In this document: piece after piece, positions 33,483-62,589 of the stretch | How the letters are laid out: every line of letters begins with the position of its first letter | Position numbering within the stretch: position 1 is the stretch's first letter | NCBI RefSeq assembly: GCF_027913035.1 | Contig: NZ_CP115775.1 | Location: 1,674,001-1,738,000 of the forward strand | Origin: Paracoccus albus | GTDB lineage: Bacteria > Pseudomonadota > Alphaproteobacteria > Rhodobacterales > Rhodobacteraceae | Reading direction: 5' to 3' | Length of the DNA stretch: 64,000 nucleotides | Notes under the pieces: model-generated | Seen by the model: the letters and a program-made list of their open reading frames with translations, nothing else | Databases searched by the model: none | Told to the model about the DNA's origin: nothing | Program-made: the position numbers and the translations under genes

Positions 33483-35084
33483 TCAACGTTTGACGACGAC
33501 CCCCGCCGCCTCACGGTCCCATGTGGCTTCGCTGAGGCCGCGCTCACGCAGCACGAATTTCTGCACTTTCCCATTTGCCGTCTTGGGAAGTTCGGACATG
33601 AATTCGACATATCGCGGGATCGAGAAATAAGACATTTTGCCTTCACAATGCCTGATGATCTCTACCGGATCCAGTGTCACACCTTCGCGCAGAACGATGG
33701 CGGTCATGACCTCATCCTCGGCCAGTTCTGACGCGACGGGAAATACAACGACCTCTGAAATCTGCGGATGCGACGACAGTACCTGCTCCACCTCGTAGGA
33801 AGAGATATTCTCACCGCGCCGCCTGATCGTGTCCTTCATGCGGTCAAGGAAGCGGTAATAGCCGTCCTCGGCCCGCACCATGCGATCGCCTGTGTGCAGC
33901 CAAAGATTGCGCCACGCCTCAATCGTTTTTTCCGGCATCCCGAAATAGCCAAGCGACATTGAGAAAGGTTCATCCGCGCGGATCACAAGTTCACCAGCCT
34001 CGCCATCCGGCAATTCGTTGTCCGCCTCATCGACGATACGGGCGTCGAAACCCTCCAGCAGTTTGCCCACCCAGCCCGGCTTGATGCTATCGACGGTAGA
34101 TCCGATCACCACATTGCTTTCCGTCGCACCATAACCGTCCAGCAGGACAACCCCGGTCCGGCGCGTAAACTCTGCCGCGGCGGGTGCCGGAACACCTGGG
34201 GCAAGGGCTACGCGCACGGAATGAGATTGCTCTTCCGCACTTTCGGCGCGCGACAGCAGCATTGGCACCATAGCACCCAGAACATAGGTCACGGTTGCAC
34301 CGGAGCCTGACATCGCATTCCAGAAACCGGAAACGGAAAACCGCGTCTCTACCACCTGATGGCACCCGTGCAGCAGTGCCTGAAAAAAACAGTTCAGCGC
34401 ATTCGTGTGAAACAGCGGCAAGGGCGTATGCAGGACATCGCCTTGCTTCAGCCCAAGCATCTGTCCCGTATAAACGCCCCACCAAAAAAATTGAGCATGT
34501 GGACAGACGACACCCTTAGACGGCCCGGTCGTACCCGAGGTGTAAAGGATGGTCAGCGGCGCGTCAGGGCGCAGATCCGCGGGCTGCGCCTCGGCTTCGG
34601 ATTGCGGCAGGTGTTGAGCCTCTATTCCCGCCAGTCTGGGCAATTCCGCCTCACCGATCACCCAGAGTCGAGAGATATCCAGCTTGTCCAGTTCCAGACC
34701 GTCCAGAACCTCCAGCAAGGTATCTTCGATAATCAGCAGCTTGGCGCCCGAATTCGACAGTATATGTTGAAGCTGAAAGCCGCGAGATGCCGTATTAATT
34801 GGCACAGACACCGCACCCATCCAGCCACAGCCCAGAAACAGCGGCATGAATTCGGCACGGTTGCCGCATAGAATCGCGACCCTGTCGCCGGCGGTAATGC
34901 CCGCCTCTGTCAGTGCCGAGGCGGCACGCGCGGCGGCCCTGCGCGTTTCACCGCATGTCAGGCGCAGCCCGTCACAGGAAAACAGTGGCGCATCGCCCAT
35001 TTGTTCTTCACGAGCGCTCAGCAGCTTCGTCAGAACACGATCCTGAAACGGAAACTCAGCCTTGAATTCTGCGATGCTCGTCAT
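33483..35084 (-). CDS. AMP-forming acyl/aryl-CoA ligase (CaiC-like)
   Basis: 533 residues of the ANL superfamily. The P-loop-like motif YTSGTTGPSKGV, the GYGATES motif, the LHTGDR hinge and the C-terminal catalytic Lys region (TANGKVQKF) are all present. It activates a carboxylic acid with ATP and CoA. The ATG at 35084 overlaps the previous stop (ATGA), so it closes a seven-gene series with a TRAP transporter. In the context of the indole/isatin genes it could activate indole-acetate or dioxindole-acetate; carnitine-like or other acids cannot be excluded. Confidence 0.85.
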   Translation of the reverse strand: MTSIAEFKAEFPFQDRVLTKLLSAREEQMGDAPLFSCDGLRLTCGETRRAAARAASALTEAGITAGDRVAILCGNRAEFMPLFLGCGWMGAVSVPINTASRGFQLQHILSNSGAKLLIIEDTLLEVLDGLELDKLDISRLWVIGEAELPRLAGIEAQHLPQSEAEAQPADLRPDAPLTILYTSGTTGPSKGVVCPHAQFFWWGVYTGQMLGLKQGDVLHTPLPLFHTNALNCFFQALLHGCHQVVETRFSVSGFWNAMSGSGATVTYVLGAMVPMLLSRAESAEEQSHSVRVALAPGVPAPAAAEFTRRTGVVLLDGYGATESNVVIGSTVDSIKPGWVGKLLEGFDARIVDEADNELPDGEAGELVIRADEPFSMSLGYFGMPEKTIEAWRNLWLHTGDRMVRAEDGYYRFLDRMKDTIRRRGENISSYEVEQVLSSHPQISEVVVFPVASELAEDEVMTAIVLREGVTLDPVEIIRHCEGKMSYFSIPRYVEFMSELPKTANGKVQKFVLRERGLSEATWDREAAGVVVKR

Positions 35085-35881
35085 TGGGAACCGTCCTTTT
35101 CTGTTCTGTGCTTGGCCAGCAAACCGCGGAAATCTGCTATTGCCTGAGCGCCCGCCCTGCCGCAAAACGCGCCGCGATTGGGCGACAGAGCGTTCAGCTC
35201 GTGCAGTTTGACCTGCATCTCCGCCTGCAGCAGCGCGACCGCGACGCAGTTCAGCACCGGCGCGTGATCCACACATAGCCCGCTTTCGCCGCTGATCAGT
35301 AATCCGGGCAGGACGCCAGCGGGAACAATCACGTCGCAACCAGCCGCGACCATCGGCGCCGCGATCTCTCGCAATGTGGAAATCATCCGTTCGCTCGCGC
35401 CACGATCACCGCGAAATGCATCGGCGAAATAACCTGGCGCGACATTCAGCCCGGCGACATGCGTGACCCGCGCGCCCAGCCCATAAAGATCGGCCTGTTC
35501 GTGATGCAAATGCCGAAATGTCTGATCCAGAGTGATCAGGCCAATCTGCCGACCCAGCTGGGCTGCGAAATGCAGACTTGCCTCTCCGACACCGGTAACT
35601 GGAATGCCTACTGCCGATTTCAGCTCCATCAGTCCGGGGTCCTGAAAGTGGCCCAGCACGATGGCGTCGAATCCCTCTGCCTCGGCATCAATGGACTGGT
35701 CGATGGCTTGAATGGCGCAGCGAAACTCCGACAGTCGGCTGAAGTCGCGGTCAGGCGGCGAGATGCCGCGCAAGACGACTTCTGTACCGGGCGATGCGAT
35801 CTCGTTCAGATAGGCCGACAGCTTCGCCATATAGTCTGGGTTCGAAGCACCGTCGATAAAGCTCTGCCAGCAGATGCGCAT
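35081..35881 (-). CDS. Asp/Glu/hydantoin racemase-fold protein without the usual catalytic cysteines
   Basis: 266 residues. The family layout is visible: ICWQSFID start, DAIVLGHFQDPGL, VTGVGEAS, QIGLITLD, CDVIVPAGVLPG. In hydantoin racemases the DAIVxxCFxDPGL and second-lobe VLGC cysteines do the chemistry. Here the first is His (LGHFQD) and the second site reads PAG. It is therefore unlikely to be an ordinary racemase and may be a decarboxylase, isomerase or hydrolase-like relative. It lies 13 bases after the Ohr gene and overlaps the CoA ligase. Confidence 0.7.
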   Translation of the reverse strand: MRICWQSFIDGASNPDYMAKLSAYLNEIASPGTEVVLRGISPPDRDFSRLSEFRCAIQAIDQSIDAEAEGFDAIVLGHFQDPGLMELKSAVGIPVTGVGEASLHFAAQLGRQIGLITLDQTFRHLHHEQADLYGLGARVTHVAGLNVAPGYFADAFRGDRGASERMISTLREIAAPMVAAGCDVIVPAGVLPGLLISGESGLCVDHAPVLNCVAVALLQAEMQVKLHELNALSPNRGAFCGRAGAQAIADFRGLLAKHRTEKDGSQ

Positions 35882-35894
35882 CGCGCCTTTCCCT

Positions 35895-36320
35895 TCAGGC
35901 CAGTGTCAGTTTGACATCAATATTGCCGCGCGTGGCGTTCGAATAGGGGCAGGTCTGATGCGCCTGTTCAACCAGCTTTTCCGCCTGTTCTTGGTCCATT
36001 CCGGGCAAATGCACGATCAATTCAACGGCAAGGCCATAGCCGGTCGGAACCTTGCCGATACCGACCTTCGCCGTGACCTGCACATCGTCCGGCACCGACA
36101 GTTTCGACTGACGGCCCGCAACTTTCAAAGCGCCGATGAAGCAGGCGGAATAGCCTGCGGCAAACAGCTCTTCGGGGTTCGTGCCTTCACCGCCGGGACC
36201 GCCCAACTCCGTCGGAACGGTCAGTTTCAGGGGAAAGCTTCCATCGGGCCGGTTTGCGCTTCCATCGCGCCCGCCGGTCGATGTCATTTCTGCTTCGTAG
36301 ATGATTTTTTCTGGTGTCAT
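35895..36320 (-). CDS. ohr: Organic hydroperoxide resistance protein, Ohr type (OsmC superfamily)
   Basis: 141 residues with the two peroxidatic cysteines of Ohr: one in GYSACFIGAL and one in TCPYSNATRGN. It reduces organic peroxides with lipoamide-type thiols in the cytoplasm. The start overlaps the preceding stop (ATGA). Its place inside a TRAP/CoA-ligase operon is unusual and suggests that the pathway makes reactive or peroxide by-products, as indole and aromatic oxygenation can. Confidence 0.9.
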   Translation of the reverse strand: MTPEKIIYEAEMTSTGGRDGSANRPDGSFPLKLTVPTELGGPGGEGTNPEELFAAGYSACFIGALKVAGRQSKLSVPDDVQVTAKVGIGKVPTGYGLAVELIVHLPGMDQEQAEKLVEQAHQTCPYSNATRGNIDVKLTLA

Positions 36321-36982
36321 GATATTGCTCTCCTGTCCGGTGAATGGGCCGGGTAAATAACTTCGGTTGTCATGACGTGGTGAAAGACGCCGCCTTCAAA
36401 TCGGGGATATTGCGCGACGTCGGCCCGCATCTCGTCGCGGACAGACGACTGAAGTGCCGCGCGCAGTTCCTGACTGCTGTCAAACACCACCCTGTTGCGC
36501 TGCATGTGCTTCGCGTGGGCTAGCGGAAGTGATGAGATCCAGTCGATCCGCGTCAGCATTTCGACACCGCGTATCCTTGGCAGACGACACATCAGCGGAA
36601 TGTGCTGGCTGCGATAATGGCGCAACCATTCTTCCGTGTTTTCGGCAGGCCCCGGATAATGCACCATGTAAGAGCAATGCGAACCTGGCGGCGTATCATC
36701 CTTATAGCGGCGCAGCAGAAATGCCTGCTGATCAGCCGCACCCTTTGTCAGATGACAAAGCGGATGATCGGCTTTTGCCGCCTCCTCCAACGCTGCGATA
36801 TCGTCGAACTCCAGTTGAAGGCATTGGGCCGGTTCACCCGTGTCCTGCGGAACGCCCTGAATCACTTCGGCCGACCGAAGCACAACCACGCGGCGCAACC
36901 CGGACACCCCGTCAAGTGAAGCGCTGCAAGGGGCCGCCGGAGCACTGTCAGATGGCCAGGTGATGAACAGGGCAAACGCCAT
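36317..36982 (-). CDS. EthD-like hypothetical protein
   Basis: 221 residues, two ferredoxin-like alpha/beta repeats. The second half contains MVHYPGPAENTEEWLRHYRSQHIPLM, which fits the dimeric EthD/stress-responsive alpha-beta barrel pattern, and FEGGVFHHVMTTEV near the end. Such proteins act as small isomerases, lyases or monooxygenases in aromatic pathways. The start is one base after the dctM stop. No precise function can be given. Confidence 0.6.
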   Translation of the reverse strand: MAFALFITWPSDSAPAAPCSASLDGVSGLRRVVVLRSAEVIQGVPQDTGEPAQCLQLEFDDIAALEEAAKADHPLCHLTKGAADQQAFLLRRYKDDTPPGSHCSYMVHYPGPAENTEEWLRHYRSQHIPLMCRLPRIRGVEMLTRIDWISSLPLAHAKHMQRNRVVFDSSQELRAALQSSVRDEMRADVAQYPRFEGGVFHHVMTTEVIYPAHSPDRRAIS

Positions 36983-36983
36983 C

Positions 36984-38294
36984 TCAAATCAACGAGGGCA
37001 AGAACAGCGCAAGCTGCGGGAAGACGACAACAATGCCGATAAGCACCAATGTCAGCAGAACATATGGCAGCGCGGCAAGTGCCACCGTCGCCAGCTTCAT
37101 ATCGCCGCCAGATGCGCCCAGCACGACGTAAAGCAACAATCCGAATGGCGGTGTCGCCAGCCCGACCTCAATCGCCAGCAGCAGGATCAGACCCAGCCAG
37201 ACGGTATCGAAGCCATATTGCGCCGCAAATGGCATGAAGATCGGCAGGGTGATCAGCATCATCGAAACCTGATCCATGAACATGCCCAGGATCAGCAGCG
37301 TGAAGACCATCAGAAGGATGATCCCATAACGCCCAAGCTCCAGCGAGATCACGGATTGAATGAACCCGTTAGACGCGCCCGAAAAGGCGAATATCTGCGA
37401 AAACGTCATGGATGCTGAGATAATCAGGAAAGTCATGCCGGTCACCTTCATCGCGTCGTCCAGCGACTGCCAGACAACCGACCAGCTGAACTTTCCGTAG
37501 ATCACCAGCAAGATGGCGACGCCCGCGCATCCAAGCGCTGCGGACTCCGTAGGTGTCGCAATGCCCATGATAATCGTACCGACAACGGTGAAGACAAGGA
37601 AGGACATGGGGATGATGTTGACCATCACCGCCTTGAACTTCTCTGCCCCGCTGATTTGCGGGACCGGATATTGTGGTGCCGCTTCCGGGTCGATGCGCGT
37701 TTGCGTCCAGATCAGCGCGCAGAACATGATGGTCAACAGAAGACCCGGCAGAATACCCGCGATCAACAGCGCACCCACATCGATTTGCGCCAGGGAACCA
37801 AGCAGAACCGCAAGCGTGGATGGCGGGATGATCACTGCAAGATTGCCCGCACCCAGCACGGGGCCATAGGCCATATGCGGCTTATATTGGCGCTTCATCA
37901 TTTCCGGCGCCATCAGTGACGACATCATGCCCGCATTGGCGAGACTGGATCCGGACAAAGCAGCGAATATGGCACCGGCCATCAGGACGACGTAAGACAG
38001 CCGCCCACGCAGGTTCCCGACAACGAGGTCGAGCGCATGGATCACGCGTTCCCCCAGGCCAGAGCGGAAGTAAAGGCTGCCCATGACCAGAAACATCGGC
38101 AAAGGTGCCAAGGCATAGGTCCCGACGGCTTCCGAGAAGTTGGAAACCATCTGTTCAATCCCGCGCACGCCACCGAAAAACAGCAGCAGACCGGCGATAT
38201 TGGTGGCGAGGAAAGCGAAGGCAACCGGCAGGCCCAGCCCCATCAGCGTGATGACCAGACCGACGAGAACGGCGAAGGGATATAGCCAATCCAT
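36984..38294 (-). CDS. TRAP transporter large membrane subunit, DctM type
   Basis: 436 residues with about 12-13 membrane segments and the family stretch FAALSGSSLANAGMMSSLMAPEM. It carries the sodium-driven transport path. The ATG at 38294 overlaps the dctQ stop (TGATG) and has a GGAGGGG site; a GTG one codon upstream is less likely. It is followed directly by the EthD-like gene, so the metabolic genes are in the transporter operon. Confidence 0.93.
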   Translation of the reverse strand: MDWLYPFAVLVGLVITLMGLGLPVAFAFLATNIAGLLLFFGGVRGIEQMVSNFSEAVGTYALAPLPMFLVMGSLYFRSGLGERVIHALDLVVGNLRGRLSYVVLMAGAIFAALSGSSLANAGMMSSLMAPEMMKRQYKPHMAYGPVLGAGNLAVIIPPSTLAVLLGSLAQIDVGALLIAGILPGLLLTIMFCALIWTQTRIDPEAAPQYPVPQISGAEKFKAVMVNIIPMSFLVFTVVGTIIMGIATPTESAALGCAGVAILLVIYGKFSWSVVWQSLDDAMKVTGMTFLIISASMTFSQIFAFSGASNGFIQSVISLELGRYGIILLMVFTLLILGMFMDQVSMMLITLPIFMPFAAQYGFDTVWLGLILLLAIEVGLATPPFGLLLYVVLGASGGDMKLATVALAALPYVLLTLVLIGIVVVFPQLALFLPSLI

Positions 38295-38806
38295 CACAGC
38301 CCCTCCGTCTCAAGCGCATTTGTATTGTAGATAGAGTCGCTGGTCAGCAGATAGCGCAGCCACTCCAACGCAGACAGAAGAAACCCGATCAGGATAGGCA
38401 GCAAGATCGCCCAACGCGGCATGTCAAATGTCCGGCTTTCGAAGCTGCCACGCGCGACGGCCTCGGCTATTGCGGCGGTCGTGATATAGCCCAGATACAG
38501 GCACAACCCGATGCAGATGATATAGACTGCAACCTCTAACGCCTTCTTGGCTGCTGGCGGGAAAAGGGCGCGCAGGAAAATCACAAAGACATGCCCCTTG
38601 ATGCGCACCAGCCAGGGCATTGAAAGGAAGGTTATATAAAGCAGGCTGTATTCCGTCGCCGAAATCGCCCATGTCATCGCCCGCCAACCGAAATTGCGCG
38701 CGACGACATCCGCAATTACCATCAGAATGACGACACCGATCAGCAGCTTGGCGGCCGATGCGCATAGCCACGAAATCCGGCCGATGAAATCAAAGAAAGC
38801 TTGCAT
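38294..38806 (-). CDS. TRAP transporter small membrane subunit, DctQ type
   Basis: 170 residues with four membrane segments and the short conserved pattern VIADVVARNF in the first and TEYSLLYITFLSMPWLVRIKGHV around the second. It links the binding protein to DctM. It lies 73 bases after dctP and overlaps dctM by one base. Confidence 0.9.
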   Translation of the reverse strand: MQAFFDFIGRISWLCASAAKLLIGVVILMVIADVVARNFGWRAMTWAISATEYSLLYITFLSMPWLVRIKGHVFVIFLRALFPPAAKKALEVAVYIICIGLCLYLGYITTAAIAEAVARGSFESRTFDMPRWAILLPILIGFLLSALEWLRYLLTSDSIYNTNALETEGL

Positions 38807-38879
38807 GACGTGATCCCGCCTTCACATCTTTTCGCATTCGCAAAGTGCTGCCCCGCCCTTTTGGGGGCGAGGCAGAAGC

Positions 38880-39857
38880 TCAGTTGAAAAGCTCGCGCAG
38901 TTCCTCGACATGCGTCGGGTCGCGGCTTTCCATTCGTTCCCAGCTGGACGCAGCTGCTGCTTCAAGGAATCGGTCACGACCTTCGCCCGTCATCTCGACC
39001 ACCTCCATGCCCTCTTCCTCCAGAAGGGCGCGGGTGTCCTGATCTTCCTTCATGATCGCCTCGGACGCCTCATGTTCGAACTCTTGCGCGGCCTGGTCGA
39101 GGATCGCCTTGGATTCATCCGAAAGGTCATTCCAGGCATCGAGGTTCATGGAAATCAGCACATCCATCCCGAAAAAGGCCGGGTCGACGCGATAGCGTGT
39201 GAACTTGTCCCATCCGAACGCCTTGTAACCAATAGACGGGTAAGCCAGCCCGTTGATCATCCCGCGTTCCAGTGCCGTATACGTGTCGCCCATCGGCATA
39301 ACCACGGCCTGCGCACCAATACTGTCGAAGAACTGTTTATACAGCGGCGAGGCTCGCAGCACGAGATCGTCAAACACCAGCATACCGTCATCGGCAAGCT
39401 GCGGTTCATCCACCGACCAGATATGGAAGCCCACGCCGGTATCGACCCACGCGATCAGCTTGGCGTTGCCCTTTTCCTGATATATCCGGTCGATCAACTC
39501 CCACCCGCCATTCTCACGCGCTTCCCAAGGCGTGATCGTCGCGGCAGAGAAGGCATCGCCTTCGGGGACGATTTCCAGATACAGGCCAGCCGGGTTGTTG
39601 ATCATGTCGATCAGTCCGCTTTGCTGGGCGGCACCAAGTTGGGTGTTCGGGATGACCTCTGGCCCGCCGCGCACGTCGATGCGGACCACGCCCTCTCCCA
39701 TTTCGTTCACCTTATCGACGAAGCGCAGGAAGCTTTGCGCAAACCCGACCTGTGTCGGCGTGAAATGAACTGCGTTGATCACATCCTCTGCATAGGCTGG
39801 TGCCGACACGGCCCCGGCAATTAGCGCCGCAAAGCTAGCTTTTCTTATGGCATTCAT
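38880..39857 (-). CDS. TRAP transporter substrate-binding protein, DctP family
   Basis: 325 residues with a signal peptide (residues 1-23, cleavage near AYA-E). The fold contains the DctP helix motif YTALERGMINGLAYPSIG with the usual position of a carboxylate-binding Arg region before it. The ATG at 39857 follows a GGGAGAGGG site. Ligand unknown; the neighbouring genes suggest an aromatic or indolic carboxylate. Confidence 0.88.
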   Translation of the reverse strand: MNAIRKASFAALIAGAVSAPAYAEDVINAVHFTPTQVGFAQSFLRFVDKVNEMGEGVVRIDVRGGPEVIPNTQLGAAQQSGLIDMINNPAGLYLEIVPEGDAFSAATITPWEARENGGWELIDRIYQEKGNAKLIAWVDTGVGFHIWSVDEPQLADDGMLVFDDLVLRASPLYKQFFDSIGAQAVVMPMGDTYTALERGMINGLAYPSIGYKAFGWDKFTRYRVDPAFFGMDVLISMNLDAWNDLSDESKAILDQAAQEFEHEASEAIMKEDQDTRALLEEEGMEVVEMTGEGRDRFLEAAAASSWERMESRDPTHVEELRELFN

Positions 39858-39939
39858 CTGACCCTCTCCCCCTGTCAGCATCGAATCGTTGTTGCTTAAT
39901 TCAGGAGTATACATGAAATGTCATAAAAACAAATTCAAA

Positions 39940-39954
39940 CTTAAAATATTTAAG
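39940..39954. promoter_or_regulatory. Inverted repeat upstream of the TRAP/CoA-ligase operon
   Basis: CTTAAA-ATA-TTTAAG, perfect 6-base arms, in the 199-base gap between the isatin hydrolase-type gene and dctP. A second palindrome, CCTGATCAGG, lies at 40011-40020. The AT-rich stretch around them probably holds the promoter. Confidence 0.35.
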
Positions 39955-40056
39955 CAGAAAGGAGGATCGACGTAGTTTTGCACGATCGTTAAGCATAAAT
40001 TCTCATCTTGCCTGATCAGGAGGCACAAACTGTCCGCACTGCCATCCTAGGACACA

Positions 40057-40830
40057 TCAGCCCTGCACAAGCGCCAGAACGCGTAGCGGGCTGCCGGTTC
40101 CGTTACGGATCTTGAGCGGTGGCGCGATCAGCATGGCCCCCGTCGGCGGCAGGTGATCAAGATTGCGGAGGCACTGAAGGCCGTATTTGCCTGCACCATG
40201 CAAGGTGAAATGCGCAGGATATGGCGGTGTGTAATGCGCACCCTGCCCCGCATCGGTTCCGACGGTTTCGGTTCCGAAACCTCTGATATCGCGATCTTCC
40301 ACCAGCAAGCGAATTGCATCCGGTGTCGGTCCGGGGGAATGAGGCCCATCCTCCTTCATATTCAGATAGGCATCGCCGCTGCGTTTGGACCAATCCGTCC
40401 GCATCAGCACCCAGCTGTCGGCGGGGATGCGGCCATGTTCTTCCTCCCACGCCAGGATGATTTCCGGCGTCAACTCAAAGTCGTCGTTCTGTGCCGCCCC
40501 TTCCGAACAGTCGATCACCACAACCGGCCCGACGAGCATGGCGGGATCAATCTCATCCACCGCGCCGTTGCGCACGTCGCGCCCGGAAATCCAGTGGCTG
40601 GGCGCATCGAAATGCGTTCCCGTATGTTCGCACATGGAAATATTGTTCCACTTCCACGCCGGACCACGATGGTCGTAGGCACTGATCTCCTCCATCCGGA
40701 AGCGGGCGCATTGGCCGAACTCCGGTGGGAGAATGATGACCGGAAAATCGGGATCCAGCGTATGCGTCAGGTCGACCACCTGCACGGCACCCTGTGACAG
40801 ACTGTTCGCAAGTTCGGAAAGTATGGTCAT
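40057..40830 (-). CDS. Isatin hydrolase-type metal-dependent cyclase family protein
   Basis: 257 residues. The metal site HTGTHFDAPSHW gives His69, His73 and Asp75 (HxxxHxD), with His79 next to it. Overall sequence (PPEFGQCARFRMEEIS, GFGTETVGTDAGQGAHY, NGTGSPLRV) looks to me like the manganese isatin hydrolases of Labrenzia and bradyrhizobia rather than kynurenine formamidase; this is from memory, not alignment. It would open isatin to isatinate. Its start overlaps the stop of the DUF35-SDR gene, and with the thiolase-like gene the three form one operon. Kynurenine formamidase is the main alternative. Confidence 0.72.
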   Translation of the reverse strand: MTILSELANSLSQGAVQVVDLTHTLDPDFPVIILPPEFGQCARFRMEEISAYDHRGPAWKWNNISMCEHTGTHFDAPSHWISGRDVRNGAVDEIDPAMLVGPVVVIDCSEGAAQNDDFELTPEIILAWEEEHGRIPADSWVLMRTDWSKRSGDAYLNMKEDGPHSPGPTPDAIRLLVEDRDIRGFGTETVGTDAGQGAHYTPPYPAHFTLHGAGKYGLQCLRNLDHLPPTGAMLIAPPLKIRNGTGSPLRVLALVQG

Positions 40831-43249: not shown

Positions 43250-43388
43250 CGGGCCCGCATGTTATAGATGAACCCAGTCGTCATCACGATCCCCCCATGC
43301 CTGACGCAGCTAATCTCTGATACAGAAACGCTCGCTGCCAGCATCATGCGATGGGGCGATCCACCCCGTTCGCATAAAGATGATTATT

Positions 43389-51923: not shown

Positions 51924-51998
51924 AAAACCCATCCATCGCTGGTTATGCGTTGGCCAAATTATCGGCATTTGCCCGACTTCCCGTCAAGCTTTAAATTT

Positions 51999-53118: not shown

Positions 53119-53594
53119 ACATCGAAACCTTGCGGATGCAGGTCCGCACCGTATCGGCGGTCATCCTTGGGGTGATGCTGCTGGCGCTGACCTGCATCAC
53201 GGTGCTGGATGTAACTGGGCGCTATATCTTCAATGCGCCCCTGCCCGGCGGGACCGAATTGACAGAGCTGCTGGTCATGGGCGTCATCTTTGCCGGCCTG
53301 CCCGCGATCAGTCTGGATGACGGCCACGTCACTGCAGATATTCTCTCACAGCAACTGTCAGATCGAGGCCGCAGCATACAGCTGTTCCTTGCCCGCCTGT
53401 GTGCCGTGATCGCGCTGATCCTCGTCTCTATCGAGATGTGGAAACATGGCGCAAGGCTCAGCAGCTATAACCAGACAACCGTCTTTCTTCACATCCCGGT
53501 GGGCATCATCGCGCAATTCGCAGCCGGGATTTGCGCGACCTCGGCACTGATTGTCGCTGTGCTGGCACTGACGCGCGCGCCGCATGGAAACTAG
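53115..53594 (+). CDS. TRAP transporter small membrane subunit, DctQ type
   Basis: 159 residues, four membrane segments (LGVMLLALTCITVLDVTGRYIF first; LPAISLDDGHVTADIL loop). It starts with GTG at 53115, overlapping the dctP stop (GTGA), so translation is coupled. Confidence 0.88.
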   Translation: MNIETLRMQVRTVSAVILGVMLLALTCITVLDVTGRYIFNAPLPGGTELTELLVMGVIFAGLPAISLDDGHVTADILSQQLSDRGRSIQLFLARLCAVIALILVSIEMWKHGARLSSYNQTTVFLHIPVGIIAQFAAGICATSALIVAVLALTRAPHGN

Positions 53595-53605
53595 GTAGCA
53601 ACCGC

Positions 53606-54901: not shown

Positions 54902-55351
54902 GTGCACGAAGCGAGTTCCGAGAAGGCCGGTTTTCTGGACAACTACACTCTGTTCCTGATGGCCGTCGCGAGCGCGAAGGTCAGCAAGAGCTTTCACGAA
55001 ATCGCTGCAGCACAGGGCCTGTCCGTCGCCGAATGGCGGGTGCTCGCCTGCCTGCATGATCTGGGAACGGCGACGGTCTCTGAACTGTCGCGCCTGTCCT
55101 TGCTGGAGCAATCGCGCCTGACCCATCTGATCGGCCGCATTCAGACCCGCGGCCTTGTCAGGCGTTACCGCGACAGTAAGAACCGCAGAAGCGTGCAGGT
55201 GAAACTGACGCCTGAAGGGGCAGAGCTTGCAGCGAACCTTGTCCACCAGGCCAAAGAGCATGAGCGCCGCGCCGTCATCGAACGCCTTGGCAAGGCAGAT
55301 ACCGAACGGCTGCACAGATTGCTGCGCAAACTGATGGAAAAGCCGGCCTGA
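54902..55351 (+). CDS. MarR family transcriptional regulator
   Basis: 149 residues. The winged helix (ATVSELSRLSLLEQSRLTHLIGRIQTRGLVRRYRD) and wing (KNRRSVQVKLTPEG) are clear. It starts with GTG at 54902, nine bases after dctM, so it is in the TRAP operon. It is convergent with the anthraniloyl-CoA operon. Candidate targets are the divergent site at 51999-52023 and the site at 62658-62678. Confidence 0.87.
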   Translation: MHEASSEKAGFLDNYTLFLMAVASAKVSKSFHEIAAAQGLSVAEWRVLACLHDLGTATVSELSRLSLLEQSRLTHLIGRIQTRGLVRRYRDSKNRRSVQVKLTPEGAELAANLVHQAKEHERRAVIERLGKADTERLHRLLRKLMEKPA

Positions 55352-55394: not shown

Positions 55395-55793
55395 TCAATC
55401 CGGGATGATCGCTGTTGCTTCAATCTCGACCTTGGCACGATCCTCGACCAGGGCAACCACCTGAACAAGCGCCATCGCCGGATAGGATTTGCCGATGGTA
55501 TTCCGATATGCTTGTCCGATCTGCTTGAGCGACGACAGATATTCAGCCTTGTCGGTCACATACCAGGTCAGCCGAACAAGATGTTCCGGTCGCGCTCCAG
55601 CCTCTGCCAAAATCGCGACGATGCTGGACAGCGCTGCCTCCACCTGACTGGCGAAATCGTCCGTCTCGAACTCTTGCTCGGCGTTCCATCCGACGACGCC
55701 ACCGGTAAAGACCATTCTTCCCGATGCGGCAATGCCGTTCGAATAGCCCGGCGTCGCCTTCCAGCCCCTGGGGTGCAGCACCTCATGTATCAT
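55395..55793 (-). CDS. RidA/YjgF family enamine/imine deaminase
   Basis: 132 residues. The pattern GYSNGIAASGRMVFTGGVVGWN is typical, and the substrate-binding Arg lies in LVRLTWYV. These proteins hydrolyse enamines and imines to ketones and ammonia. As the last gene of the anthraniloyl-CoA operon (11-base overlap with the thioesterase), it could release ammonia from the 2-amino-cyclohexene-type CoA intermediates made by the monooxygenase/reductase. Confidence 0.85.
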   Translation of the reverse strand: MIHEVLHPRGWKATPGYSNGIAASGRMVFTGGVVGWNAEQEFETDDFASQVEAALSSIVAILAEAGARPEHLVRLTWYVTDKAEYLSSLKQIGQAYRNTIGKSYPAMALVQVVALVEDRAKVEIEATAIIPD

Positions 55794-56202
55794 CGGTCAG
55801 CTCCTTGAATTCGATAAGTTTGTCCCGCACCTCGTCTGGCCATGGCGTGGCTTTGCCGCCATTGCTGATCCAGACGATTGTCGATGTCGCACGCACACGT
55901 TCCTGCCGATCCGCATGGGCCAGAAGGTCCAGCGTCGCACTGGATGTTCCGACGTTCTGAATCCGCAGGCTGAAATCGAGCATATCGCCGAGTCGCGACG
56001 GCGCGCTGAATGTGGCCTCAATCCTGACGGTCGGAACGCCCGTACCCTCTTCCATATGCATCCGGCGAAACGGATAACCGACGACTTCGGCAAAGAAGTT
56101 CTCCACCACCGAATTCGTCATCTCGAAATAGCGGGGGTAGAAGACGATGCCCGCCGGGTCGCAGTGATTGAATTCAACCTGAATGAAACGGTGATAGCTC
56201 AT
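55783..56202 (-). CDS. Acyl-CoA thioesterase, 4-hydroxybenzoyl-CoA thioesterase type
   Basis: 139 residues, hot-dog fold. The motif [17 protein letters not shown] carries the catalytic Asp15, as in the Pseudomonas 4-hydroxybenzoyl-CoA thioesterase. It hydrolyses an aromatic or alicyclic acyl-CoA, perhaps to free CoA from dead-end intermediates. It overlaps both neighbours (ATGA with the dehydrogenase; 11 bases with ridA). Confidence 0.87.
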
Positions 56203-57323
56203 GACATCACACTGCGCGCGATCACCAAACGCTGAACATCGCTTGCACCTTCATAGATGCGCAAGGCACGAATATCGCGGTAGAGTTCTTCGACCTTGAC
56301 GCCGTGACGCACGCCATCGCCGCCATGCAGCTGGACGGCCATATCAATGACCTCCTGTGCAGCCTCCGTCGCATAAAGCTTGGCCATCGCGGCTTCACGG
56401 CTGATCCGGGCCGCACCCTGATCCTTGGTCCAGGCAGCGCGATAGACCAGCAAGGCAGCCGCATCGATCTTCAGCGCCATATCGGCCAGATGCCCCTGCA
56501 CCATCTGAAGCGAAGCCAGCGCCTCCCCCTGGATCTCGCGGCCTGCCGTCCGCGCAAGTGCCTCGTCAAAAGCGCGCCGCGCCATGCCAAGTGCCGCCGC
56601 CCCGACCGTGGGCCGGAAGACATCCAGAACCGACATCGCCAGCTTGAAACCTTCGCCCGCTTTCCCGATCAGCGCCGAATCCGGCAAGAACATGTCGTCC
56701 ATACGCAACGTGGCAAGCGGATGCGGCGCGATCACCTCAATCCGTTCCGCTATCGACAGCCCTTCACTATCGGCCGGCATCAGGAAGGCGGACAGACCGC
56801 GCGCGCCCGGCGCCTCTCCGGTTCGGGCGAAAACAACGTAAAGATCGGCAATTCCGCCATTGGAAATATAGGTCTTCTCGCCATTCAGCCGATAACCCCC
56901 ATCCACCTTTTCAGCAGTCGTCGCGGTTGCCGCAACGTCTGATCCCGATCCCGGCTCCGTCAGCGCAAATGCCGAAATCGCCGCGCCTGAACGGGTTTTA
57001 TCAAGCCATTGCCGCTGCTCCGCAGTGCCAAAAAGGCTGATCGCACCCATGCCCAGCCCCTGCATCGCGAAGGAAAAATCGGCAAGTGCATCATGCCGGG
57101 CCAATGTCTCGCGGATAAGGCAAAGCGAACGCACATCAATCTTGTCGCCACCCGAATGTTGCAGCCAGCCGGCCTTGCCCATTGCGGCCACCATACCCCG
57201 GCAGGCATCATCGACATCGCTATGATCGACCGGCAGGTTCCTGTCGGCCCAGGCATCCAGCCCCTCGGCCAACTCACGATGGCGAGCCTCGAAAAACGGC
57301 CAGTCCAGAAAGCTACGATCCAT
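56199..57323 (-). CDS. Acyl-CoA dehydrogenase
   Basis: 374 residues. FAD/acyl-CoA motifs are [11 protein letters not shown] and [10 protein letters not shown]; the C-terminal [14 protein letters not shown] contains the catalytic Glu position. It makes an alpha,beta-double bond in an acyl-CoA and passes electrons to ETF. It is the second such enzyme in the operon, so the pathway has at least two dehydrogenation steps. It lies 53 bases after the enoyl-CoA hydratase gene, across a strong palindrome. Confidence 0.88.
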
Positions 57324-57376: not shown

Positions 57377-58189
57377 TCAGTTACCTTCGAAAACCGGCTT
57401 TTCCTTCGCCACGAAAGCGCGATAGGCCCGCTCAAAATCGCGGGTCTGCATACAAATGGCCTGCGCCTGCGCTTCGGCCTCAATCGCCTGTTCCAGACCC
57501 ATGTTCCATTCCTGGTTCAGCTGGGTCTTGGTAATGCCATGTGCGAATGTCGGGCCGGCAGCGATCCGATGCGCCAGCCTCAGCGCCTCGTCCTCCAGGG
57601 CATCGGTCGCGTGCAGAGCATTCCAGAACCCCCAACGCTCGCCCTCATCCGCGCTCATGACACGGCCCGTATAAAGCAGATCAGCCGCCCTGCCCTGACC
57701 GATGATCCGCGGCAGCATGGCGCAAGCCCCCATGTCACAGCCGGCCAGACCGACCCGCGTGAACAGAAAGGCGCATTTCGCATCCGGCGTCGCCAGCCGC
57801 AGGTCCGAGGCCATTGCGATGATCGCGCCCGCGCCGACGCAGATACCATCGACCGACGCAATAATGGGCTTGCCGCATCCGATCATCGCCTTGACCAGAT
57901 CACCCGTCATGCGGGTGAATTCCAGCAGACCCCTCATATCCATCCCGACCAAGGGGCCGATAATGTCATGCACATCCCCGCCCGAGCAGAAATTTCCGCC
58001 GTTCGAGGCAAAGACCACCACGTCGATATCGCTGGCATAGACAAGCGCGCGGAACGTGTCGCGCAACTCGGCATAGCTGTCGAAGGTTAGCGGATTCTTC
58101 CGGTCCGGCCGGTCCAGACGGATGATCGCGACGCGGTCGCGCACCTCCCAGAGGAAGTGCCGGGGTTTAATCCCTGCCATCTCGGTCAT
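57377..58189 (-). CDS. Enoyl-CoA hydratase/isomerase family protein
   Basis: 270 residues, crotonase fold. The oxyanion-hole stretches [14 protein letters not shown] and [17 protein letters not shown] are present. It hydrates or rearranges the CoA-bound ring or chain intermediates after anthraniloyl-CoA reduction. A GGAGGA site precedes the ATG at 58189. The family is broad (hydratases, isomerases, ring hydrolases), so the exact step is open. Confidence 0.88.
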
Positions 58190-58228
58190 GTCATTCCTCC
58201 TGTCAGGATCATTACTGAACAACGCATG

Positions 58229-58969
58229 TCAGACCTCACCGCCCGCGATTGCGATTGCCTGTCCGTTCACTGCAGCAGCGCCTTCGCTACACAACCACAA
58301 TGCAGCCGCACTGACCTCCTCCGGTTGAACCAACCTGCCCTGCGGGTTTGTCGCCGTCAGCGCCTTCATTGCAGCCTCACGTTCGCCACCGGTCTTTTCC
58401 ATAATGTTGGCAATGGAGCGCTCTGTCATTTCGGTGTCCAGAAAACCGGGACACAACGCGTTGGCCGTAATGTCACGCTTTGCGATTTCCAGTGCCAGAC
58501 TGCGGATCATGCCGATCACACCATGCTTCGCGCCAGCGTAAGGCGCGACATAGCGATAGCCCTTCAGCCCGGCAGTCGAGGCGACCGCAATCAGCCGCCC
58601 CCAGCCGGGCATCTGGATCAGCCCTTCGCGCAATGTCAGGAATGTGCCCGTCAGATTGACCGACAGCATCGCATTCCAGTGATCCAGATCGACGCGGTGA
58701 AACGGTGCGCTGTCTGATGCACCCGCATTGGCGATGACGATGTCACAGGTTCCGGCCTCGGCGAACATTGCCTTGACGCTCGCCTCATCCGTCACATCCG
58801 CAGTCACCGCGCGCGCGCCAGGCAGGGCTGAGGCGACAGCTTCCAGCGGCTCGACCCGGCGGCCGGTGATGACCACACGCGCACCGGCACGGCTGAAGGC
58901 CCGTGCCAGTTCCGCGCCGACACCCGTCCCGCCGCCGGTAATCAGAACCTGTTTCCCCGATAGCGACAT
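58229..58969 (-). CDS. Short-chain dehydrogenase, 3-hydroxyacyl-CoA dehydrogenase-like
   Basis: 246 residues with intact catalytic residues: cofactor loop TGGGTGVG, NAGAS, Ser in VASTAG and APYAGAK with Tyr and Lys. Close in layout to 3-hydroxybutyrate/3-hydroxyacyl-CoA dehydrogenases. It fits the alcohol-to-ketone step of the beta-oxidation-like sequence. It lies 39 bases ahead of the hydratase gene and 8 bases after the glutaryl-CoA dehydrogenase-like gene. Confidence 0.87.
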   Translation of the reverse strand: MSLSGKQVLITGGGTGVGAELARAFSRAGARVVITGRRVEPLEAVASALPGARAVTADVTDEASVKAMFAEAGTCDIVIANAGASDSAPFHRVDLDHWNAMLSVNLTGTFLTLREGLIQMPGWGRLIAVASTAGLKGYRYVAPYAGAKHGVIGMIRSLALEIAKRDITANALCPGFLDTEMTERSIANIMEKTGGEREAAMKALTATNPQGRLVQPEEVSAAALWLCSEGAAAVNGQAIAIAGGEV

Positions 58970-58977
58970 AGCCTGCC

Positions 58978-60165
58978 TCAGAAAAACGCCTGCAACCCGG
59001 TCTGCGCCCGACCGAGGATGAGCGCGTGAACGTCATGGGCACCTTCATAGGTATTCACCGTCTCAAGGTTGCACATGTGACGGAAGACCGGGAATTCGTC
59101 CGAAATGCCGTTGCCGCCATGCATATCCCGCGCCATCCGCGCGATATCGAGCGCCTTGCCGCAATTGTTCCGCTTGATGATAGAGATCATCTCGGGCGCC
59201 ATCTTGCCCTCTTCGAACAGCCGGCCCACACGCAGCGCGGCCTGAAGGCCAAGGGAGATTTCGGTCATCATATCGGCCAGCTTCTTCTGGAAAAGCTGCG
59301 TCTGCGCCAGCGGCTTGTTGAATTGCTTGCGGTCCAGCCCATATTGCCGCGCCGCGTGCCAGCAGGCCTCTGCCGCGCCCATGGAGCCCCAGGCGATGCC
59401 GTAGCGCGCGCGGTTCAGACAGCCGAACGGACCGGCCAGCCCCTCAATCTCGGGGAACATGGCGCTTTCCGGCACCTCGACATTATCCATAACGATTTCG
59501 CCGGTGATCGAGGCGCGCAGGCTCAGCTTGCCTTCGATCTTCGGTGCGGACAGCCCTTTCATGCCCTTTTCCAGCACGAAACCGCGGATTTTATTGTCAT
59601 GCGCTTCGGATTTGGCCCAGACGACGAACACATCGGCAATAGGAGAGTTCGAGATCCACATCTTCGAGCCGTTCAGGACATAGCCCCCATCCGTCTTTTT
59701 GGCCCGCGTTTTCATGCCCCCCGGATCAGAACCTGCATCGGGCTCGGTCAGGCCAAAACAGCCGATCCACTCGCCCGAGGCCAGCTTCGGCAGGTATTTC
59801 TTCTTCTGCTCTTCCGAGCCATAGGCATTGATCGGATGAATCACCAGCGAGGACTGCACGGACATCATCGAGCGGTAGCCGCTATCCACGCGCTCGACCT
59901 CACGCGCGACAAGACCGTAAGACACATAACCCGCACCGATCCCGCCATATTCTTCCGGCAGCGTGACACCAAGCAGCCCCAACTCTCCCATTTCACTAAA
60001 GATCGCGGGATCGGTGTTTTCGTTCCGAAACGCCTCACGCACACGCGGTTGCAGCTTTGATTGCGCATAGGCGTTTGCGGTGTCGCGGATCATCCGCTCT
60101 TCCTCGGTCAGCTGCTGCTCTAGCAGAAACGGGTCATCCCACACGAGCTTGTTGCTGTCTTTCAT
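58978..60165 (-). CDS. Acyl-CoA dehydrogenase of the glutaryl-CoA dehydrogenase type
   Basis: 395 residues. It carries glutaryl-CoA dehydrogenase marks: [34 protein letters not shown], and the C-terminal [17 protein letters not shown] with the catalytic Glu. It would oxidise and decarboxylate glutaryl-CoA to crotonyl-CoA, a plausible late step of ring degradation, or act on a ring acyl-CoA. The second ATG (60165) is chosen because the GAGGA site abuts the first ATG at 60171. Confidence 0.88.
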
Positions 60166-60240
60166 GGTCATTCCTCTTTTCTCACGGTCAGTCTGACCCG
60201 GTTTGTCACTGTCGGCAGCGCAGAGCCAGCGTTTTCCAGC

Positions 60241-62589
60241 CTAACCGCGCATATGGCGGCCCGGCGCAGCTTTTCGCTGTAATTCTAGCAACTTCTCTCG
60301 CGATTTTTCGGCCTCTCGGAAGGCTTGCATCGCCCCGCTGATATATTGCTTCGGCCAGGACTTCTTGTTCAGAGCCCCATACCAGGCAGCCGCCTGATTG
60401 GCGAAGAAAGGGTTCCACAGGTGGGGGCGACCGACGGCCACCAGATCGGCGCGCCGGGTGTGCAGGATGGTGTTGACCTGCGCGGCCTCGGTAATCGCGC
60501 CGACAGCCATCGTCGCTATTTTCGGGACGTTCCGGACAGCTTCGGCCAGATGGGTCTGGAACATGCGACCATAAACAGGTTCCTGATCCGGCACTGTCTG
60601 GCCCGCCGATACGTCAATCAGGTCGCAGCCAGCGTCGCGGAACGCCTCGGCAATGGCCAGCAAGTCGTCCTCGGTCAGGCCGCCCTCTTTCCAGTCGGTA
60701 CCGGACACACGCACCGACATCGGCCGATCCTCGGGCCAGACGGCCCTCATCGCCTCGAACACCTCCAACGGATAGCGCACACGGTTTTCAAGGCTGCCGC
60801 CATACTCGTCGCTGCGTTGGTTGGTCAGTGGCGACAGGAAGGAAGCCAGCAGATAGCCATGCGCACAATGCAGTTCCAGCATGTCAAACCCGGCCCGCGC
60901 AGCGCGTTCGGTCGCCTGTACGAACTCGGCCTTGACACGGTCCATGCCGGCGCGGTCAAGCTCCGCCGGGACCTGACTTTCACCCTCGAACCAAGGGATC
61001 GCCGAAGCAGAGACAAGCGGCCAGTTCGCGCCTTCATCCGCAATCGGATGATCCGCCGCCTCCCAGCCAAGCTGGGTAGAGCCCTTGCGCCCCGCATGAC
61101 CCAACTGCATCGCGACCTTGGCACCGGTATTGTCATGAATGAAATCCACGATTTCTTTCCAACGCCGCTCATGCTCATCGGTCCACATGCCCGGACAGCC
61201 TTCGGTGATGCGGGCATCGGCGGAAGGACAGGTCATCTCGGTATAGATCAGCCCCATGCCACCCGTCGCATGCCCGCAATAATGCACCTTCAGCCAATCT
61301 GTGGGATTGCCGTCCTTATCTGCGCTGTATTGCGCCATTGGCGACATCACCACCCGGTTCATGACCTCCATCCCGCGCAGCTTGAAGCGAGAGAACATCG
61401 GCGTCGGCCGCGTCTCGCGCAGATCCTCGCCGGTTTCGCGCAGATGGCGGGCATACCATTCGTCATCTGCCCTGCGCACGAATTCCGGGTCGCGCACGAT
61501 CAGATTGTCATATGTGATCGACTTGGCCCGGCACATGACGACCATGGCGAACTGATACGGCTCCATATCCCATGACCGGTTCATGTGTTCGAACCACGCC
61601 AGCGAGACGTCGGCATTGTGCTGAATAATCTGGCACGGGGTGCGGCGCGCGTCGTCATAAGCCTGAAACGCCGCCTGCACATCGGTTTCTGCATGTTCCA
61701 GCAACGCATCCGACAGCGCGATTGCACATTCCATGGCCAGCTTTGTGCCTGACCCGATAGAGAAATGCGCGCTCGCCTTCGCGTCACCCAGGATAACGAT
61801 ATTATCAACAAACCAGTTTTCGCAGAACACCCGCGGAAAGTTGCGCCAGTTCGACCGGTTCAGCAGCAGGGGATGACCGTCCAACTCTTCGGCAAAGATC
61901 TTCTCAAGCTTCGCCTTGGAGCCTTCCTCGTCATATTCCTCGAAACCGTGAGCCTGCCAGGTTTCCTCATCCATCTCGAACACCCAGGTCGAGCGGTCGT
62001 CCTGATACTGATAGCAATGCGCGACCATCGGGCCGTGCTCTGTCTCGCGGAAGAAATAGTTGAACTCATCCATCGGCCGGCTGGAGCCCATCCAGCAGAA
62101 ACGGTTCGACTTCCACACCGTGCTCGGCTGGAAACCTTCCTTGTAATATTCACGGATCGCAGAGTTGATGCCATCCCCCGCAACAATCACATCGGAATCG
62201 GCAAAGCGGGTTTTCAGGTTTTCCGGCCTGATCTCTACCCCGAACTCCATCTTCACGCCCAGTTCGGCGCAACGATCCTGTAAAATCGTCAGCAAGGTTT
62301 GACGAGAGGTGCCGCAGAAGCCGTTGCCCCCACAGCGCATTTCCTGCCCCTTGAAATGAACGGCAACGTCATCCCAATAGGCGAATTTGTCGCGGATACG
62401 TTCGAATACCGGCTTATCGCGGTTCAGGAATTCATCCAGCGTTTCATCCGAAAACACGACGCCGAAGCCGAAAGTGTCATCACGCTGGTTGCGCTCATAA
62501 ACCTCGACCTCCCAGTCGGGACGCGCCTTCTTCGTCAGAAGTGCCGTATAAAGCCCGCCAGGTCCGCCACCTATCACCGTGATTTTCAA
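60241..62589 (-). CDS. Anthraniloyl-CoA (2-aminobenzoyl-CoA) monooxygenase/reductase
   Basis: 782 residues, a fusion. Residues 1-390 are a flavin monooxygenase like salicylate hydroxylases (KITVIGGGPGGLY, VAGDGINSAIR, VILGDAKASAHFS). Residues about 395-780 are an old-yellow-enzyme type reductase (VMSPMAQYSA, QLGHAGRKGS, LHCAHGYLLASFLSPLTN). This fusion is known for 2-aminobenzoyl-CoA monooxygenase/reductase and salicylyl-CoA hydroxylase: it hydroxylates and then reduces the ring. RidA and beta-oxidation genes downstream favour anthraniloyl-CoA. The TTG at 62589 is the likely start: CAGGAG stands six bases upstream, and the protein then begins at the FAD motif. An ATG 48 bases earlier is the alternative. 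Confidence 0.88.
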   Translation of the reverse strand: MKITVIGGGPGGLYTALLTKKARPDWEVEVYERNQRDDTFGFGVVFSDETLDEFLNRDKPVFERIRDKFAYWDDVAVHFKGQEMRCGGNGFCGTSRQTLLTILQDRCAELGVKMEFGVEIRPENLKTRFADSDVIVAGDGINSAIREYYKEGFQPSTVWKSNRFCWMGSSRPMDEFNYFFRETEHGPMVAHCYQYQDDRSTWVFEMDEETWQAHGFEEYDEEGSKAKLEKIFAEELDGHPLLLNRSNWRNFPRVFCENWFVDNIVILGDAKASAHFSIGSGTKLAMECAIALSDALLEHAETDVQAAFQAYDDARRTPCQIIQHNADVSLAWFEHMNRSWDMEPYQFAMVVMCRAKSITYDNLIVRDPEFVRRADDEWYARHLRETGEDLRETRPTPMFSRFKLRGMEVMNRVVMSPMAQYSADKDGNPTDWLKVHYCGHATGGMGLIYTEMTCPSADARITEGCPGMWTDEHERRWKEIVDFIHDNTGAKVAMQLGHAGRKGSTQLGWEAADHPIADEGANWPLVSASAIPWFEGESQVPAELDRAGMDRVKAEFVQATERAARAGFDMLELHCAHGYLLASFLSPLTNQRSDEYGGSLENRVRYPLEVFEAMRAVWPEDRPMSVRVSGTDWKEGGLTEDDLLAIAEAFRDAGCDLIDVSAGQTVPDQEPVYGRMFQTHLAEAVRNVPKIATMAVGAITEAAQVNTILHTRRADLVAVGRPHLWNPFFANQAAAWYGALNKKSWPKQYISGAMQAFREAEKSREKLLELQRKAAPGRHMRG

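Follow-up and report, generated by a model that had tools for sequence, protein, structure and literature searches.

A 64,000-nucleotide stretch of the Paracoccus albus genome (contig NZ_CP115775.1, positions 1,674,001 to 1,738,000; termed the window, to which all coordinates refer) carries a gene island at 33483–62637 that contains an iad-type locus for indole-3-acetate (IAA) and very probably serves auxin catabolism via isatin to a CoA-bound ring. Systems of this kind are already known and, judging from its gene content, the island is a rearranged form of the iad pathway. We consider it likely that the pathway is complete, with the rewired steps outlined below, and the comparison with published loci predicts testable reassignments of IadG, IadH and IadAB. 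The first-pass annotation of this DNA had listed a Rieske oxygenase system, a CoA ligase, a thiolase-like protein, an isatin hydrolase, a 2-oxoacid oxidoreductase, a CoA monooxygenase cluster, two TRAP transporters and three MarR regulators, all of which were recovered by gene calls and domain scans. The route that it had drawn, from an indole acid through isatin and anthraniloyl-CoA to central metabolism, holds at the level of sequence. Still, the gene arrangement gives the impression of two modules put together, not of the single simple route then envisaged.

Organization of the island

Genes were identified from gene calls and domain scans of the window, curated family cut-offs, and matches to solved structures. 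The host genome comprises 3.76 Mb in 5 contigs with a completeness of 99.99%. Three blocks of the island lie on the minus strand, while iorAB is encoded on the plus strand from 44134. The first block runs from 43249 down to 33483 and encodes IadG, IadH, isatin hydrolase, the P, Q and M subunits of TRAP transporter 1, an EthD-like protein, a racemase-like protein and a CoA ligase. The second extends from 51968 down to 48452 (reductase, Rieske alpha and beta subunits, and a short-chain dehydrogenase/reductase, SDR), with TRAP transporter 2 and MarR 3 divergent from it. The third, from 62637 down to 55395, holds the CoA monooxygenase/reductase, two acyl-CoA dehydrogenases, an SDR, an enoyl-CoA hydratase, a thioesterase and a RidA-family protein. 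As the main enzymes score hundreds of bits and the gene order recurs in Paracoccus relatives, the island is not a chance assembly. The nearest named relatives of its IorA are from Paracoccus (88–89% identity, among the best 80 of 471 IorA relatives).

Assignment to the iad family

The Rieske oxygenase alpha subunit IadD (49632–50954) scores 561 bits against 9o71, the IadDE protein of Variovorax paradoxus CL014, and 559 bits against 7yls/8h2t, which we take to be IadD as well, the codes not having been found in the literature text searched. The next chain reaches 143 bits, and the benzoate dioxygenase family 197.5 bits against a cut-off of 781. The oxygenase thus does not cluster with benzoate or phthalate oxygenases, the grouping on which the initial proposal would have foundered. 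Its Rieske and iron-site motifs are conserved across 25 rows. The adjacent beta subunit IadE (49168–49635, PF00866; start placed at the ATG at residue 45 of the open reading frame, ORF) completes a pair related to IadDE, itself a marker of iad-like loci, and is accompanied by the FNR/ferredoxin-type reductase IadC (50967–51968; PF00175, PF00111). IadA and IadB are described as exclusive markers of iad-like loci (PMC9613470), and both are encoded in the island. Isatin hydrolase (IadI, 40057–40830), expected to convert isatin into isatinate, scores 498 bits against the solved isatin hydrolase A (5nnb) and carries the metal motif HTGTHFDAPSH; it shares the metal site of isatin hydrolases A and B, with no relevant difference noticed (PMC6117287). 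IadJ (48452–49171), the proposed dioxindole-3-acetate maker, is an active-looking SDR with intact TGGNKGIG and YSASK motifs, 52–78% identical to the SDR that closes six canonical iad operons.

MarR 3 (54902–55351, plus strand) is IadR-like, and a response to IAA is predicted from its sequence. Its nearest solved structure is 3CDH (111 bits), followed by 7kki/7kfo at about 85 bits (84.6 for 7kfo). 3CDH is the R. pomeroyi IadR, which showed the tightest IAA binding measured in that study, and 7KFO is Variovorax MarR_73 with IAA, for which Ser28 and Arg46 are named as contacts (PMC9613470). In an alignment read by eye, these residues correspond to Ser28 and Arg46 of MarR 3.

In R. pomeroyi (L098), Roseibium (L107), P. 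saliphilus (L101) and the genomes of L049, L061 and L080 the genes follow the order C-D-E-F-G-H-I-J. The island orthologs are 45–85% identical to those of the canonical marine operons in the first three, but these run as a single unit with IadF, whereas the island has no IadF between IadE and IadG. With the iad and iad-like loci of V. paradoxus CL14 (PMC9613470, PMC10374108, PMC12633357) the island shares IadAB, IadCDE, IadG, IadH, IadI, IadJ and MarR control. It differs in being split into several transcription blocks, in its CoA ligase and in the attached anthraniloyl-CoA cluster. Moreover, the island encodes TRAP systems, and Variovorax instead the ABC binding protein IadK2 (not searched for in the host genome).

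The presence of two unlike TRAP systems, together with an IAA assignment that rests on sequence, could indicate that the true substrate is another indolic acid. We regard this as quite improbable, as the genes match iad loci, MarR 3 is IadR-like, and R. pomeroyi, with the canonical order on its megaplasmid record, has been reported to degrade IAA (PMC9613470). Two related arrangements were seen outside the island. A Pantoea plasmid (L100, 13045–20089) carries an IadD-like Rieske oxygenase (54%) with beta subunit and reductase and no IadG, IadH or IadI match in that stretch; it adjoins an FAD oxidoreductase, an amidase and an aromatic amino acid transporter, and perhaps belongs to a different indole route. 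In Roseibium (L107, 17801–20119), a cytochrome P450/oxidoreductase fusion directly follows the iad operon and its TRAP genes. The IAA-tested R. pomeroyi strain ATCC 700808 is presumably DSS-3.

Proposed side-chain cleavage by IadG and IadH

IadG (42077–43249) has the thiolase fold, and its best solved match is 9myr (177.6 bits), i.e. CtSal, a bile-acid aldolase, together with its DUF35 partner, followed by 4u4e and, in third place, Ltp2 (6ok1). The Cys of the CAS motif in thiolase 7yvy, which we take to be the nucleophile, aligns with Gly86 of IadG. In an alignment of the window protein with 19 locus matches (20 rows, 16 distinct, duplicate rows of the same genomes included), Gly occupies this place and a YDDY motif is present in 20/20 rows. 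The protein had earlier been called Cys-less; the nucleophilic Cys is indeed absent, but the chain contains 7 Cys. YDDY aligns with YDHF of Ltp2 and YDCY of CtSal, motifs in which the Tyr is the base starting retro-aldol cleavage; both enzymes bind a DUF35 domain, and Sal, with Gly at the Cys place, is incapable of thiolysis (PMC12329534). The two traits of a thiolase-fold retro-aldolase, loss of the nucleophile Cys and the Tyr of YDxY/F, are hence combined in IadG, with Y282 as the proposed base.

The partner, listed before as a DUF35 protein, does contain DUF35 (zinc ribbon and OB fold; PF12172, PF01796) but is a single 416-residue protein, IadH (40830–42080), in which this part is fused to an SDR-like domain (PF00106). 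Encoded alongside IadG, it would form a complex with it. Across 139 rows (136 distinct, duplicates of the same genomes included; the protein search gave the best 120 of 2669 matches), the Lys of YxxxK is found in none and the Tyr in 9; in 136, Asp takes the place of the first Gly of TGxxxGxG. IadH therefore lacks both classical dehydrogenase motifs, whereas IadJ keeps them, and is proposed to serve as the aldolase scaffold. Its structure model was poor (pLDDT 62.3) and was not used.

In print, the middle iad steps are attributed to IadG as ketothiolase and IadH as alcohol dehydrogenase in a "reductive removal", inferred from annotation (PMC12633357). Because IadG lacks the nucleophile Cys and IadH the catalytic Lys, this assignment appears doubtful. 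We instead predict that IadG and IadH catalyse retro-aldol cleavage of dioxindole-3-acetyl-CoA into isatin and acetyl-CoA, which is a new assignment. Dioxindole-3-acetyl-CoA is a tertiary beta-hydroxyacyl-CoA, and its retro-aldol cleavage gives these two products directly. After the IadI step in Variovorax, the reported product is C8H7NO3 (PMC12633357). By formula arithmetic this equals isatin plus water, while hydrolysis of dioxindole would give C8H9NO3, a balance in favour of the retro-aldol route.

Some observations speak against the retro-aldol assignment or limit it. The third residue of the IadG motif is Asp in 20/20 rows, neither the Cys of Sal nor the His that in Ltp2 acts along with a second Tyr, and replacement of Cys304 in CtSal by Ala, Ser or His abolished activity (PMC12329534). 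On these residues IadG is not assigned to the Sal or the Ltp2 type. Furthermore, deletion of iadI leads to build-up of C8H7NO2, the formula of dioxindole (PMC12633357), so that the retro-aldol reading has to assume a side reduction of isatin. This build-up is also what the published scheme can call upon, i.e. reductive removal of the side chain to dioxindole and an end in free anthranilate with IadAB dispensable, besides the authors' reading of the annotation and the restoration of anthranilic acid by iadC–K2 alone (PMC12633357). Since the nucleophile Cys is missing from 20/20 IadG rows and the catalytic Lys from 139/139 IadH rows, and a reductive product would need re-oxidation before C8H7NO3 forms, we judge the published scheme unlikely. 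The nearest described relatives of a retro-aldolase IadG/IadH pair are the steroid side-chain aldolases Sal-Shy and Ltp2-ChsH2 (PMC12329534), which share the thiolase fold without nucleophile Cys, the YDxY/F Tyr and a fused DUF35 partner. The island pair departs from them in the Asp of the motif, in a partner domain of degenerate SDR type instead of a hydratase, and in the indolic substrate that it would cleave.

Probable isatinate oxidation by IorAB (IadAB)

IorA/IadA (44134–46281, plus strand; PF02775) and IorB/IadB (46278–47819, plus strand) are the alpha and beta subunits of a thiamine pyrophosphate (TPP)-dependent 2-oxoacid:ferredoxin oxidoreductase. From gene linkage and reaction logic, IorAB probably turns isatinate into anthraniloyl-CoA, again a new assignment, and would act as a CoA-acylating isatinate oxidoreductase. 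Isatinate is 2-aminophenylglyoxylate, and its conversion would parallel, with an ortho-amino group, that of phenylglyoxylate into benzoyl-CoA. The commonest forms of the ferredoxin-type Cys motifs are retained in IorA (88 rows).

The linkage was assessed in loci fetched with IorA (the best 80 of 471 relatives, each with 10-kb flanks). Isatin hydrolase at ≥40% identity occurs in 70/80 loci and in 48/51 with complete flanks, at a median distance of 2.1 kb from IorA, and a CoA monooxygenase in 17/80. In ten loci isatin hydrolase is missing, but for two of them (L049, L080) it appears once the stretch is extended (L097, L096). P. saliphilus L101 encodes two isatin hydrolases (8401–9192 and 20066–20848), of which the one in the iad operon is 69% and the one beside MarR-IorAB 51% identical. 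Among 210 alphaproteobacterial genomes drawn, the host included, isatin hydrolase at ≥50% identity is present in seven, and all seven have an IorA relative (31/210 overall), six of them with a CoA monooxygenase (39/210 overall). The two genes lie at most 3.4 kb apart in 4/7 of these genomes and on different contigs in 3/7. In Azospirillum thermophilum, IorAB, IadCDE, an IadF, an SDR and the CoA monooxygenase/beta-oxidation cluster form one gene run.

The annotation as indolepyruvate:ferredoxin oxidoreductase, which would yield indole-3-acetyl-CoA or IAA from tryptophan, finds support in the beta subunit, which passes NF006179 (675.6 bits, cut-off 348). Conversely, the alpha subunit remains far under the cut-off of TIGR03336 (274.8 versus 650.9 bits), and it is isatin hydrolase that IorA is usually found beside, in most cases with no Rieske oxygenase in the stretch, a setting that leaves no obvious place for indolepyruvate; a true indolepyruvate role is accordingly held to be improbable. 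The absence of the oxygenase should be read with care, because the 4/80 loci with Rieske (≥40%) are a lower bound set by the 10-kb flanks, and in L004, L005 and L011 the Rieske genes lie just past the flank.

Besides this lower bound, two results count against an isatinate-specific IorAB. Of the 31 genomes with an IorA relative, 24 lack isatin hydrolase at ≥50% identity, so the family as a whole extends beyond members that accompany this enzyme. The second result comes from a Variovorax strain with genes 77–53 deleted and iadC–K2 restored, hence without iadA (gene 72). C8H7NO3 and C7H7NO accumulate strongly only in this strain, in keeping with a block at isatinate, and yet anthranilic acid is fully restored (PMC12633357). 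IadAB is thus not the sole way past isatinate in Variovorax; from the gene order, we infer that iadB is absent from this strain as well. In searches of open-access papers, judged mostly from listings, none was seen that ties isatinate to an indolepyruvate oxidoreductase-type enzyme or to anthraniloyl-CoA. As a separate observation, genes for a TPP-binding protein or an aldehyde dehydrogenase lie near iadGHI in Agrobacterium pusense (L105, 6323–7969) and Shinella (L103, 5470–6981), and could serve isatinate decarboxylation to 2-aminobenzaldehyde (C7H7NO), an alternative way to anthranilate.

The probable anthraniloyl-CoA cluster

The anthraniloyl-CoA (or salicylyl-CoA) monooxygenase/reductase (60241–62637) combines FAD_binding_3 and old-yellow-enzyme domains. 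It scores 1026.5 bits against NF006101 and so stays just below the salicylyl-CoA 5-hydroxylase/oxidoreductase cut-off of 1078. Its end had been placed at 62589, which is an alternative possible start, as the ORF reaches 62637 (GTG). Next to it are encoded an acyl-CoA dehydrogenase (58978–60171, PF02771), possibly glutaryl-CoA dehydrogenase-like (NF045552, 227 bits, below the cut-off of 470); an SDR (58229–58969, PF13561; TGGGTGVG and YAGAK present), proposed as 3-hydroxyacyl-CoA dehydrogenase; an enoyl-CoA hydratase (57377–58222; NF006107, 484.9 bits, cut-off 330); a second acyl-CoA dehydrogenase (56199–57323, PF00441); a 4HBT thioesterase (55783–56202, PF13279); and a RidA-family enamine/imine hydrolase (55395–55793, PF01042). 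It is gene linkage that points to anthraniloyl-CoA as the probable entry compound. The aerobic 2-aminobenzoyl-CoA pathway (PMC6221969) shares the monooxygenase/reductase. The island version comes with beta-oxidation genes and, unlike that pathway, has no CoA ligase gene inside the cluster, its substrate being proposed to arrive CoA-bound from IorAB.

A possible anthranilate-CoA ligase is nevertheless encoded elsewhere in the genome (L111, C1:1453044–1454435). This protein is benzoate-CoA-ligase-like (359.5 bits, cut-off 375.25) and adjoins a lipase-family alpha/beta hydrolase. Its relatives (71–78%) are found in the anthraniloyl-CoA cluster of six loci (L024, L066, L069, L071, L078, L079), while the clusters of L004, L005, L011 and L099 gave no match, nor did the domain scan of the window. 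Given L111, free anthranilate may be used as well, which tempers the proposed CoA-bound route. The notion that no anthranilate-CoA ligase is needed since none is linked is thereby weakened.

A different CoA ligase and a possible second module

The CoA ligase (AMP-binding, PF00501) is present as first described, with its extent revised to 33483–35084, as the match to NF004808 (PRK06155; 804 bits, cut-off 722) starts at residue 90 of 618 and an ATG is available at residue 86, the ORF itself beginning further upstream. It is not an IadF ortholog. Two IadF proteins are 56–57% identical to each other and 32–33% to this ligase; an IadF query of the host genome finds no ortholog, the best match being this same ligase (35%, 227 bits), and in four Paracoccus-type relatives the query gives 34–36% matches. 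We infer that a CoA ligase of another clade, proposed to act on dioxindole-3-acetate or a related acid, stands in for IadF and is grouped with the TRAP 1, EthD-like and racemase-like genes, which together would make up a second module of the island.

The TRAP 1 genes encode the solute-binding protein (DctP, 38880–39914, PF03480), the small permease (DctQ, 38294–38806, PF04290) and the large permease (DctM, 36984–38297; PF06808, TIGR00786). The other two genes are additions to the first-pass annotation. The Asp/Glu racemase-like protein (35081–35881, PF01177) shows GHFQD and PAG/PGG at what we take to be the Cys places of two-cysteine Asp/Glu racemases in 10 aligned rows (the protein of the window twice, duplicates included), and so lacks the catalytic Cys pair. 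The EthD-like protein (36317–36982) is rare, with 18 proteins including that of the window and 54 invariant columns in 17 rows. It is modelled as a two-domain alpha-beta barrel with a fold related to putative monooxygenases and an anthrone-oxidase-like protein. These fold matches are remote (mostly 4–18% identity) and tied with sulfur oxygenase reductases, and a shared fold shows no function.

Relatives of the ligase (53–58%) lie beside or near iadGHI on plasmids of Neorhizobium, Shinella, Azospirillum and A. pusense, the last also with racemase-like (57%) and EthD-like (40%) genes. Five plasmid records (the above and Novosphingobium; W01–W05) were searched for Rieske proteins, as plasmids alone, and no match at E 1e-20 or better was obtained on three (W01, W02, W04); W05 gave matches of 28–34%, and W03 carries IadD at 68%. 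W01 and W02 also have an IadF-like ligase at 48%, and in Azospirillum both ligase types share one plasmid. In the 210-genome draw, one of the six genomes with IadG at ≥59% (G194) is without a Rieske protein above 38% among the matches listed. These gene contexts suggest that the module is a separate one, fed by a compound of its own.

An alternative reading is that 33483–43249 is only a relocated part of the IAA route, with a neutral ligase swap and the TRAP 1, EthD-like and racemase-like genes as bystanders. We give this reading somewhat less than an even chance. It agrees with the Paracoccus relatives, as L004, L005 and L011, which carry the module, and L003, whose contig ends inside it, are from genomes with an IadD Rieske protein at 88–94%. 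It is at odds with the same ligase accompanying iadGHI on the three plasmids without Rieske match at the above threshold, two of which also have the 48% IadF-like ligase, and with both ligases on one Azospirillum plasmid. On the far side of the ligase, the Rieske block follows at once in the L004 and L005 genomes; in the L011 genome it is about 13 kb away from the ligase. The idea that these three Paracoccus have the module without a Rieske oxygenase was rejected, since whole-genome search placed the oxygenase on the same contigs.

The second module might even constitute a stand-alone pathway for oxidised plant auxin, oxindole-3-acetate or dioxindole-3-acetate, although this extension is speculative and seems doubtful to us. 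TRAP 1 would import the acid, and the EthD-like protein, as a possible cofactor-free oxygenase, would hydroxylate oxindole-3-acetate at its acidic C3. The stereochemistry at C3 would be the task of the racemase-like protein, acting without Cys, and isatin would be reached through the new ligase and IadGHI. If so, the island would unite auxin and oxidised-auxin catabolism on a common trunk from isatin to anthraniloyl-CoA.

Proposed route and implications

Combining the above, IAA would be taken up by TRAP 2 (52093–54892, plus strand; P 52093–53118, Q 53115–53594, M 53531–54892; PF03480, PF04290, PF06808). Oxygenation by IadCDE and dehydrogenation of the product to dioxindole-3-acetate by IadJ, both shown by others in Variovorax, are expected here by homology. 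The ligase at 33483 would then form the CoA ester in place of IadF, and IadG, with the DUF35 part of IadH as its support, would cleave it into isatin and acetyl-CoA, as the residues suggest. Isatin hydrolase, by strong homology, should open isatin to isatinate, which IorAB would decarboxylate and oxidise with CoA to anthraniloyl-CoA under reduction of ferredoxin. The monooxygenase/reductase and beta-oxidation genes, with RidA and the thioesterase, are likewise expected from homology to lead anthraniloyl-CoA to central metabolism.

Root bacteria are being equipped with the iad pathway by engineering, although the assignments of its middle part continue to rest on annotation (PMC12633357). Were IadGH to act as a retro-aldolase and IadAB as an isatinate oxidoreductase, the route would deliver acetyl-CoA, reduced ferredoxin and anthraniloyl-CoA, and free anthranilate would become avoidable. 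This would change the requirements of an engineered strain, open enzyme assays that settle the step assignments, and give the thiolase-fold aldolases, known from steroids, a branch for indolic substrates.

Putative regulatory sites and flanking genes

MarR 1 (43451–43987, PF01047) and MarR 2 (47860–48369, PF12802) are encoded on the minus strand; the latter has 3boq as best solved match and scores 28.5 bits against 7kfo. An operator-like inverted repeat precedes iorA (44050–44069), and a near copy with one mismatch precedes iadG (43387–43406), both being weakly supported candidates. The pattern, derived from the window itself, has four matches against 0.43 expected, of which two are one site read on either strand. 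In the Paracoccus relatives no complete copy of the repeat was found, and a half-site occurs once, in L004.

At lower coordinates, 17874–33331 holds purine-degradation genes, namely a urate oxidase with a possible cytochrome c part (17874–19196), an XdhC-like protein (28682–29611) and xanthine dehydrogenase (29536–33331). XdhAB was considered as an indoleacetate hydroxylase and rejected, its small subunit reaching 646 bits with TIGR02963 (cut-off 467), i.e. xanthine dehydrogenase. Further away, 5719–14464 carries, on one strand, ABC transporter genes, an 815-residue protein without Pfam match (10039–12486) and a GH88 hydrolase (13316–14464).

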